Shown here piece after piece: positions 9,634 to 22,326 of a stretch of 36,119 nucleotides of DNA. The notes beneath the pieces were generated by a model. It ran no database searches and was not told the DNA's origin. It saw only the letters and a program-made list of their open reading frames with translations. Position 1 is the stretch's first letter. Every line of letters starts with the position of its first letter. Position numbers and translations under genes: made by a program. Source of the DNA: a bacterium (GTDB lineage: Bacteria > Sysuimicrobiota > Sysuimicrobiia > Sysuimicrobiales > Segetimicrobiaceae); the NCBI GenBank assembly GCA_035703895.1, contig DASSXJ010000080.1, forward strand, positions 1 to 36,119, written 5' to 3'.

Positions 9634-9897
9634 CAGCGTGGCGATGACGGAGAGGGTGCGCGGGATCGCGTCGCCCAGGGAGGGCCGGTCACCGACTGCG
9701 AACCGGCCCGCGACACAGCCCGACGCCGTTCGCTCCAGAGCGGTTTGCTGAACCCGGCTCAAGAGCCGGCATTAGGCGAACGGGGACCGGCCCGTATCCC
9801 GGTCAATGAAGGGTCGCCTGGGGGAACTCCGGGCGGAAAAAGGGTGGGACCGCGGAAGCGCACTTCCGTCCCTTGGACGGAGGTGCGTTTTATTTTT
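9634..9897 (+). promoter_or_regulatory. T-box leader, phenylalanine-specific
   Basis: tRNA-sensing riboswitch: uncharged tRNA-Phe pairs with a specifier codon and with the T-box bulge to prevent termination. Seen: the stem I start GATGACGGAGAGGG (9643 on), the stem I apical sequence CAGGGAGGGCCGG...GACTGCGAACCGG, a TTC at 9729-9731 in the specifier position, a CCGGCTC/GAGCCGG stem III, GTATCCCGGTCAATGAAGGG, and the invariant AGGGTGGGACCGCGG (9841-9855). The terminator at 9859-9897 completes it. TTC fits pheS downstream. Confidence 0.94.
9859..9897 (+). terminator. Intrinsic terminator of the Phe T-box
   Basis: CGCACTTCCGTCC (9859-9871) pairs with GGACGGAGGTGCG (9875-9887) around CTT with a single G-U pair, followed by TTTTATTTTT (9888-9897). 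It excludes the alternative antiterminator pairing with the T-box sequence just upstream. Confidence 0.92.
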
Positions 9898-9920: not shown

Positions 9921-10955
9921 ATGGTCTCGCAACTGGATCGCAGCGATCTCGAGAGTATACGACGCCGCGCAGAAGGCGAGTGCGTCGAGGCGCCCACCGT
10001 CGAGGCACTGGAGGGGGTGCGCGTTCGCTATCTCGGTCGAAACGGCGTGATCACCCAGGCGTTCCGCCAACTCGGCACGGTCGCGTCCGCAGATCGCCCT
10101 GCAATCGGGGCCGCGTTGAACGACCTGAAGGCCGGGGTCGAGCGCATGGTGGAGGCCCGCGCCGCGGCGCTGCGCGAGGAAGGGCAGCACAGCCGCCTCG
10201 CGGCGGAGGCGATCGACGTCACCCTCCCCGGGCGCCTTCCCACCCTCGGGCGGACGCACATCCTCACCCGGACCATGGACGAGATCGCGCAGATCTTCCT
10301 CGGGCTGGGGTTCGAGGTCGTGGAAGGGCCGGAGATCGAGCGCGATCACGATAACTTCGAACGCCTCAACATGCCGGAGTACCACCCCGCCCGGGACGCT
10401 CAGGATTCGTTCTACGTGACGAACGAATGGCTGCTGCGGACGCACACGACGGTCGTGGACGTGCACGTGCTGGATTCCCGGCGCCCGCCGATGCGGGCCC
10501 TGGCCTACGGGCACTGCTACCGGCGGGATCCGGCGGACGCCAGCCACTCCCCGATGTTCCACCAGGCCGACGGGTTCATGGTCGACGAGGGCGTGCGGTT
10601 CTCGGATCTGAAGGGGATCCTCATGGCGTTCGCCCGCGGGTTCTTCGACCCCCAGGTCCGCGTCCGCTTCACACCGTCCTACTTTCCGTTCACCGAGCCG
10701 AGCGCGGAGATGGCGATCTCGTGCGTGACGTGCGGGGGCCGCGGGTGCGCCGTGTGCAAGCAATCCGGCTGGCTGGAGATCCTCGGGTGCGGCATGTTCC
10801 ACCCTCGCGTGTTGGAGATGGCCCAGATCGATCCCGAACGGTATACCGCGTTCGCCTTCGGCATCGGCGTCGAACGCCTGGCGATGCTCAAGCACCGGAT
10901 CAACGACATCCGGCTGTTCTACGACAACGACGTCCGCTTTCTCCGACAGGTATAG
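9921..10955 (+). CDS. pheS: Phenylalanine-tRNA ligase alpha subunit
   Basis: Catalytic subunit of the (alpha-beta)2 enzyme that charges tRNA-Phe. 344 residues, normal length: N-terminal coiled coil about 1-90 that reaches the tRNA, then the class II catalytic core with motif 2 YGHCYRRDPADASHSPMFHQ, a Cys-rich loop (CVTCGGRGCAVCKQSGW), and motif 3 FGIGVERLAMLKHRINDIR. FTPSYFPFTEPSAEM belongs to the Phe pocket. ATG 9921 follows AGGAGG (9903-9908) directly after the T-box terminator. Eight bases separate it from pheT. Confidence 0.97.
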   Translation: MVSQLDRSDLESIRRRAEGECVEAPTVEALEGVRVRYLGRNGVITQAFRQLGTVASADRPAIGAALNDLKAGVERMVEARAAALREEGQHSRLAAEAIDVTLPGRLPTLGRTHILTRTMDEIAQIFLGLGFEVVEGPEIERDHDNFERLNMPEYHPARDAQDSFYVTNEWLLRTHTTVVDVHVLDSRRPPMRALAYGHCYRRDPADASHSPMFHQADGFMVDEGVRFSDLKGILMAFARGFFDPQVRVRFTPSYFPFTEPSAEMAISCVTCGGRGCAVCKQSGWLEILGCGMFHPRVLEMAQIDPERYTAFAFGIGVERLAMLKHRINDIRLFYDNDVRFLRQV

Positions 10956-10963
10956 GAGCGGCG

Positions 10964-13063
10964 ATGCGCGTCCCGCTGGAGTGGCTGCGTGAATATGTGA
11001 CGGTCGATGTTCCGCTGGAGACCCTGATCGAGCGGCTCCACGGTATCGGCCTGCCCGTGGACCGCATCGAGCACATCGGGGACGATACCGTCCTCGAGAT
11101 CGAACTGACGGCCAACCGTCCTGACTGCATGAGCGTACTGGGGGTGGCGCGTGAGGTCGCGGTGATGCTCGGCCGCCGGCTCCGCATTCCCAAGCCGAAG
11201 GCCGTCACGCGCCCGCCCGCCGCATCGGAGCGGATCGCCGTCAAGGTCGATGATCCCAAGGGCTGCCCGCGGTTCACCGCCCGGATGATCGAGGACGTCC
11301 GGGTCGGTCCGTCGCCGGCGTGGGCGCAGCGGCGCCTGGAAGCCGCCGGCGTTCGGGCGATCAACAATGTGGTCGATGTCACGAACTACGTCATGCTCGA
11401 GCTCGGCCAACCGATGCACGCCTTTGACTACGATCGGATCGCCGAACACCGTCTCATCGTCAGGCGCGCCTTCCCCGGGGAGCGGCTTCGCACGCTCGAC
11501 GGACTCGACTACACGCTGGACGCCGAGATGCTGGTTGTCGCGGACGCCCGGCGAGCGGTGTCGCTGGCGGGCATCATCGGAGGAAGCGACACGGAGATCG
11601 GTCCGGGCACAACGCGGGTGCTGCTCGAGGCCGCGTACTGGAACCCTCCGGCAATCGGACGCACGGCGCGGCGCCTGGGCATTCGGACGGAGGCCTCTGC
11701 GCGGTTCGAGCGGGGCATGGACCCCGCCGGCCCTCCGCCCGCCCAAGAACGGGCGGCGCAGTTGTTCACCGAATGGTGCGGTGGGCGTGTGCTCCGAGGG
11801 ACGATCGATGTCGTTGGACTTCGCGCGATCCGGCCGGCGATCCGGCTGCGGCCCGCGCGGGTCGTGACGGTGCTGGGGGTGGCCGTGCCGCGGGCGCAGA
11901 TCGCGCGGAGCCTCCGCGCGCTCGGGTGCGCCGTCGCCCCCGGGAGGGCGGGACGCTCCGGCGGACAGCCCCCGGCGGGATCGCTCGAGGTCCGGCCGCC
12001 CTCGTTTCGCGTCGATCTCTGCCGCGAAGAGGATCTCGTCGAGGAGATCGCCCGGGTGTACGGGTACGACCGCGTGCCCTTGACGATGCCTCGCGGCGAG
12101 ACCACGCCGGGGACGATCGTCCCTGTTCTCCGAATCGATGCGCAGGTTCGCGAGACGCTCGCGCGCTGTGGGCTGACGGAGGTCATGACCCTGACATTGA
12201 TCTCCGCGGAGGCGGCGGCAAAAACAGGGGCGGGGGTCGTCGTGGTGCAGAATCCCCTCGTCACCGAACAGTCGGTGCTGCGGCCGTCGCTTCTGCCCGG
12301 TCTGGCATCGGTGCTGGCGAGCAACGCGGCCAGGCGCGTTGATGATGTCCAGGTGTTCGAGCTCGGGAGGGTGTTCCTCCCGGCTCCACGCGGGGCCACC
12401 GGCGGTCTCGACGGCCGCCCGGAGGAGCGAAGAACCCTCGGGATAGCCTCGATGGGACGATGGCGGGCCGGGTGGAACGTGCCGATCGAGCGGGGGGCCA
12501 CCGACTTCTATCATTTAAAAGGGCTCATTGAGGCACTCCTGCGCGAGTTGGGAATAGGCGAATGGGTCACGGAGCCGCTATCGGACGCACCGACCTGGTG
12601 GCACCCCGGGCGCGCGGCCGTCCTGAAATACCGCGGGCGCGCAATCGGGCGCCTCGGCGAGGTGCATCCCGACGTGGCCGCCGCCTACCGACTGCCGCAC
12701 CGTGCGTACCTGGCGGAAGTCGACCTTGAGGCGGTGCTCCCTGCGGTGATGTTGATCCGCACATCTCCGGAGCTCCCGCGCTTTCCCTCGGTCGAGCGGG
12801 ACGTGGCCGCGGTCATCCCGGACCGGCTCCCGGCGGGCCGGGTCGAAGCGATCATCCGCGCGGCGGCGGGTCCGCTGTTGGAGGTGGTCGAGCTCTTCGA
12901 CGTCTACGCGGGCCCGCCGGTGCCTGCGGGGCACCGAAACCTCGCGTATCGCCTGCGCCTGCGCGCCCAAGATCGCACGCTCACCACGGGTGAGGCGGAG
13001 GAAATCGTCCAGCAGGTCCGAATAGCCCTCCAGGAGCAGCCCGGCGTTCAGCTCCGCGAGTAG
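10964..13063 (+). CDS. pheT: Phenylalanine-tRNA ligase beta subunit, short form lacking the tRNA-binding OB domain
   Basis: 699 residues against about 790-810 in most bacteria. The N-terminus (MRVPLEWLREYVTVDVPLE...GLPVDRIEHIGDD) passes directly at about residue 43 into TVLEIELTANRPDCMSVLGVAREVA, so the roughly 110-residue EMAP-II/OB tRNA-binding insert (domain B2) is missing. The rest is intact: B3/B4 editing region (INNVVDVTNYVMLELGQPMHAFD), B5 (REEDLVEEIARVYGYD), the inactive synthetase-like fold and the C-terminal FDX-ACB domain (FPSVERDVAAVIPD to the end), which binds the tRNA anticodon. The join is clean with no frameshift, so the loss looks stable. ATG 10964 is preceded by AGGAG. Confidence 0.95.
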   Translation: MRVPLEWLREYVTVDVPLETLIERLHGIGLPVDRIEHIGDDTVLEIELTANRPDCMSVLGVAREVAVMLGRRLRIPKPKAVTRPPAASERIAVKVDDPKGCPRFTARMIEDVRVGPSPAWAQRRLEAAGVRAINNVVDVTNYVMLELGQPMHAFDYDRIAEHRLIVRRAFPGERLRTLDGLDYTLDAEMLVVADARRAVSLAGIIGGSDTEIGPGTTRVLLEAAYWNPPAIGRTARRLGIRTEASARFERGMDPAGPPPAQERAAQLFTEWCGGRVLRGTIDVVGLRAIRPAIRLRPARVVTVLGVAVPRAQIARSLRALGCAVAPGRAGRSGGQPPAGSLEVRPPSFRVDLCREEDLVEEIARVYGYDRVPLTMPRGETTPGTIVPVLRIDAQVRETLARCGLTEVMTLTLISAEAAAKTGAGVVVVQNPLVTEQSVLRPSLLPGLASVLASNAARRVDDVQVFELGRVFLPAPRGATGGLDGRPEERRTLGIASMGRWRAGWNVPIERGATDFYHLKGLIEALLRELGIGEWVTEPLSDAPTWWHPGRAAVLKYRGRAIGRLGEVHPDVAAAYRLPHRAYLAEVDLEAVLPAVMLIRTSPELPRFPSVERDVAAVIPDRLPAGRVEAIIRAAAGPLLEVVELFDVYAGPPVPAGHRNLAYRLRLRAQDRTLTTGEAEEIVQQVRIALQEQPGVQLRE

Positions 13064-22249: not shown

Positions 22250-22326
<77 letters not shown>

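Follow-up and report, generated by a model that had tools for sequence, protein, structure and literature searches.

In the bacterial phenylalanine--tRNA ligase (PheRS), the C-terminal FDX-ACB domain (B8) of the beta subunit PheT binds the anticodon, the coiled coil of the alpha subunit PheS and the catalytic module bind and charge the tRNA, and the B2 domain of PheT is said to resemble EMAP II (PMC3275996). Many PheRS beta subunits of the CPR have no B2 (PMC5370408). The beta subunits of archaeal and eukaryotic PheRS have no FDX-ACB domain (PMC3275996), which distinguishes them from the protein described here. Their chains in the PDB have 589-623 residues, and are thus shorter than the common bacterial form, as is our protein. 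They are not known to carry an EMAP-type insert either. B2 is reportedly dispensable and said to contribute to editing, to go by the title of a 2006 study by Roy and Ibba. That work is a laboratory study, whereas the absence described below occurs in nature and is fixed in a phylum. B2, which is found in most textbook bacterial PheRS, is indeed missing from a whole phylum of free-living bacteria, in agreement with the dispensability reported from the laboratory.

The window, i.e., the whole stretch of 36,119 nucleotides analysed here (contig DASSXJ010000080.1, assembly GCA_035703895.1), comes from a member of the Sysuimicrobiota and carries pheS and pheT on its forward strand. The pheS gene (9924..10955) encodes an alpha subunit with the N-terminal domain (PF02912) and the class II core (PF01409); its start is likely the ATG at 9924, within a frame open from a TTG at 9873. 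The phenylalanine--tRNA ligase beta subunit gene, pheT, follows after a gap of 8 bp (10964..13063). It encodes 699 residues without the B2/EMAP-II OB domain. This product passes the curated cut-off of the bacterial-type PheRS beta model TIGR00472 (555.5 bits for 402.65) and stays far under that of TIGR00471 (123 bits for 282.65). An Rfam scan of the whole window, in which an RNA leader near pheST was sought, gave a tRNA at 22250-22323 as its sole match.

An earlier note on this DNA had described a clean frame in which all other domains are kept, and this description holds. The frame runs uninterrupted from the ATG at 10964 to the stop codon ending at 13063, and four domains match above their Pfam cut-offs: the B3/B4 editing domain (Pfam residues 101-273, 11264..11782; PF03483, E 2e-67), B5 (residues 293-368, 11840..12067; PF03484, E 3.7e-20), the catalytic-like module or CLM, B6/B7 (residues 372-588, 12077..12727; PF17759, E 1.6e-54), and the FDX-ACB (B8) anticodon-binding domain (residues 605-698, 12776..13057; PF03147, E 3.4e-25). 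The B1 beta-hairpin (residues 32-46, 11057..11101) was delineated from a phmmer alignment with Thermus thermophilus PheT and from AlphaFold2 strands; its end bears a weak similarity, under threshold, to the PhetRS_B1 model PF18262. All these segments lie on the forward strand. The order B1-B3/B4-B5-CLM-FDX-ACB, the editing residues and the pheS-pheT gene order are those of the T. thermophilus (1PYS) and Escherichia coli (3PCO) enzymes, from which the window PheT differs by the lack of the 112-residue B2, whose flanking residues in T. thermophilus are 38 and 151. It shares this lack with B2-less PheRS beta subunits of the CPR, such as OGE14653.1, a likeness that is drawn from the statement of the paper (PMC5370408) rather than from sequence; it differs from the CPR case by its phylum, Sysuimicrobiota, with sampled genomes of 1.5-4.8 Mb.

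The absence of B2, which was the central claim of the earlier note, is confirmed by three lines of evidence. PF01588 (tRNA_bind) was not found in the window PheT by a Pfam search at E values up to 1. This is not a matter of sensitivity, since the E. coli and Desulfoscipio PheT proteins, run as controls in the same search, are clearly positive (92.9 and 73.7 bits). The phmmer alignment pairs residues 1-38 with residues 1-38 of the T. thermophilus chain, and residues 39-691 with its residues 151-774. What is missing is therefore exactly T. thermophilus 39-150, the B2 domain. The NRPD motif is reached 50 residues after the start of PheT, the B1 strands being joined directly. The passage from B1 to the ELTANRPDC motif is thus as direct as had been proposed; the cut, formerly placed at about residue 43, has to be moved to residue 38/39 (about 11077/11078, adjacent to the 11080 given earlier), between both strands of the B1 hairpin. 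The AlphaFold2 model closes this hairpin by a two-residue turn (strands 32-38 and 41-46, pLDDT about 90) and is devoid of an OB barrel. It was built from an 18-row alignment, and its domain-packing confidence is low (pTM 0.54); its best PDB matches are bacterial PheRS beta chains. A divergent OB domain hidden within residues 1-60 was also considered, and is ruled out by the profile, the alignment and the model.

The same architecture is found throughout the phylum. A PheT match was obtained in 41 of the 43 Sysuimicrobiota genomes sampled, the other two being incomplete and without match. Forty of these 41 genes are visibly B2-less, their matched pieces spanning the B1 junction with no insert; the remaining one (G017) is truncated at its N-terminus, which is not covered. 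The B2 columns hold 1-2 residues in the 28 phylum loci that are readable there. No PF01588 match was found at a PheT place across the 43 genomes; the matches that do occur correspond, by frame and score, either to the C-terminus of MetG or to small free-standing proteins. The PheT of ANGP1 (Candidatus Segetimicrobium genomatis, Sysuimicrobiota), which is among the closest relatives that bear a name, is the same in N-terminus and length as that of a sampled genome (G030) ranked by genome search within the order of the window. In the tree, the phylum sequences form one supported group (SH-aLRT 99).

As judged from sequence, the window very probably encodes a B2-less bacterial PheRS of the (alpha-beta)2 type, normal and functional, and the lack of B2 would be a stable trait of the phylum. 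B1 would close on itself via a tight turn, at the site of the OB insertion in other bacteria. The tRNA-Phe would be bound and charged through the most important parts, namely the N-terminal coiled coil and catalytic core of PheS and the FDX-ACB domain of PheT; the window encodes FDX-ACB as well as the N-terminal domain of PheS. The tRNA-Phe of the genome has a GAA anticodon, A73, U20, G44, U45 and a G27-C43/G28-C42 stem. Set against the E. coli identity elements, these features look conventional, the anticodon stem being almost the same as in E. coli, and no unusual feature was seen in this tRNA. Since FDX-ACB, the PheS N-terminal domain, the editing residues and the tRNA-Phe all look conventional, we infer that this PheRS most likely charges normally. 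The earlier conclusion that the enzyme needs some other way of holding tRNA-Phe was thus an overstatement.

Mischarged Tyr-tRNA-Phe would be hydrolysed at the intact B3/B4 site. The residues R131, T140, N141, H152, G203, G206, E211, E222 and T242 of this domain are conserved in the window PheT, and include the equivalents of T. thermophilus T249, N250, H261, G315, E323, E334 and T354 and of E. coli R244 and G318, which PMC3275996 and PMC12447630 (PMC4066437 for G318) list as residues of the editing site. All 28 phylum sequences compared keep these columns, apart from that of E222, where 27 have E and one has D. The cost expected from the lack of B2 would be a weaker grip on mischarged tRNA for editing rather than a failure of charging, and the window enzyme may thus edit somewhat less well. 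B2-less PheRS appear as natural enzymes for testing the contribution of B2 to proofreading.

Outside the phylum, a TIGR00472 search was run on 150 bacterial genomes, one per family. The B2 region was scored as present in 103, absent in 24 and unclear in three, with 20 partial, other-type or unmatched cases, these classes being assigned by the analyst from the listed matches. The B2-less call was given to profile matches starting at 153-159, mostly accompanied by a separate match over about positions 1-40. B2-less PheT is thus found in 24 of the 127 classifiable genomes outside Sysuimicrobiota, about one in five. The corresponding frames span 656-729 residues, plus one of 821 (G124) that was checked by sequence. 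Thirty short candidates from outside the phylum were checked in the same way, and they have 0-8 residues in the B2 columns (17 in one family, f41), as compared with at least 107 in the long form. Named examples of short PheT include MAGs labelled Omnitrophota, Acidobacteria and Clostridia, and families with at least two fetched genomes are uniform for the short or the long form. The B2-less PheT of the window is an ordinary variant, known and fairly common, because its phylum relatives and about one in five other families are also devoid of B2, and because B2 is reported to be dispensable. What is new is only its fixation across a phylum and its wide scatter, which are modest additions.

The genome is split into 337 contigs, and an assembly or binning error that removed about 336 bases from the contig could in principle have produced the junction. 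The same junction nevertheless recurs in relatives from the window's genus, family and order whose genomes were assembled separately, as well as in other phyla, which leaves such an artefact a negligible probability. Since B2-less PheT is common to the whole phylum, neither a divergent OB domain nor an assembly gap accounts for it, and the phylum survey thus refutes the assembly deletion that the earlier note had envisaged. It had also suggested searching for a free-standing OB protein, and one does exist. Besides MetG, the only other PF01588 protein of the genome is a 109-residue CsaA encoded on the minus strand of another contig (C70, locus L004, 995-1324), which scores above the TIGR02222 cut-off and which, among solved chains, most closely matches a CsaA over the full length. 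The missing OB could therefore be supplied in trans by such a CsaA/Trbp111-like protein, the more so as the genomes of the window's own family encode one as well. However, this is a plain CsaA encoded away from pheST, present in the family of the window and patchy or absent in the other families of the phylum. Equally short PheT proteins occur without any CsaA in all genomes of one family (f4: G014, G019 and G022, 98-100% complete) and in two others (f5 and f3). Being missing from near-complete genomes of several short-PheT families, CsaA is not a general substitute, and supply in trans looks very unlikely.

The module was likely lost, as the earlier note had held probable, although neither the polarity of the changes nor how many there were can be read from the tree. 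Scattered loss is the best-fitting history of the short PheT. The best trees disperse the short forms among the long ones, with 13 short/long changes for 85 rows and nine for a set of 39 rows chosen by hand, both with low support. The opposite polarity would make the B2-less form the older state of bacterial PheT, B2 having been inserted into B1 later in other lineages. It draws on the poor resolution of the deep PheT tree, where the starred branches force only one or two changes, on the AU test of the 39-row set, which does not reject a tree with one branch separating all short forms from the rest (p = 0.27), and on the weak resemblance, under threshold, between the B1 end and PF18262. Against these stand the nine to 13 changes of the best trees and the long form being about four times commoner across families, so that an older short form seems unlikely. 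It is quite unlikely that the B2-less PheT of this and other phyla keeps the ancestral bacterial architecture, the EMAP-II domain having then been gained as an insertion and spread within Bacteria instead of being lost many times.

Some further variations of PheT were observed outside the phylum. At three loci of one family (L132, L140 and L141, in G076, G221 and G352), a linker of about 17 residues replaces B2, which places these proteins between the short and the long form. Other loci from Oscillospiraceae and Clostridia, among them L041, L049, L061 and L070, are longer by about 100 residues in the B2 region, L041 having 219 residues in the B2 columns where about 111 are usual. Finally, the only PheT match of nine genomes (G058, G072, G100, G107, G118, G144, G169, G177 and G190) covers the CLM region weakly, and these genomes perhaps have a PheRS beta of the archaeal type.
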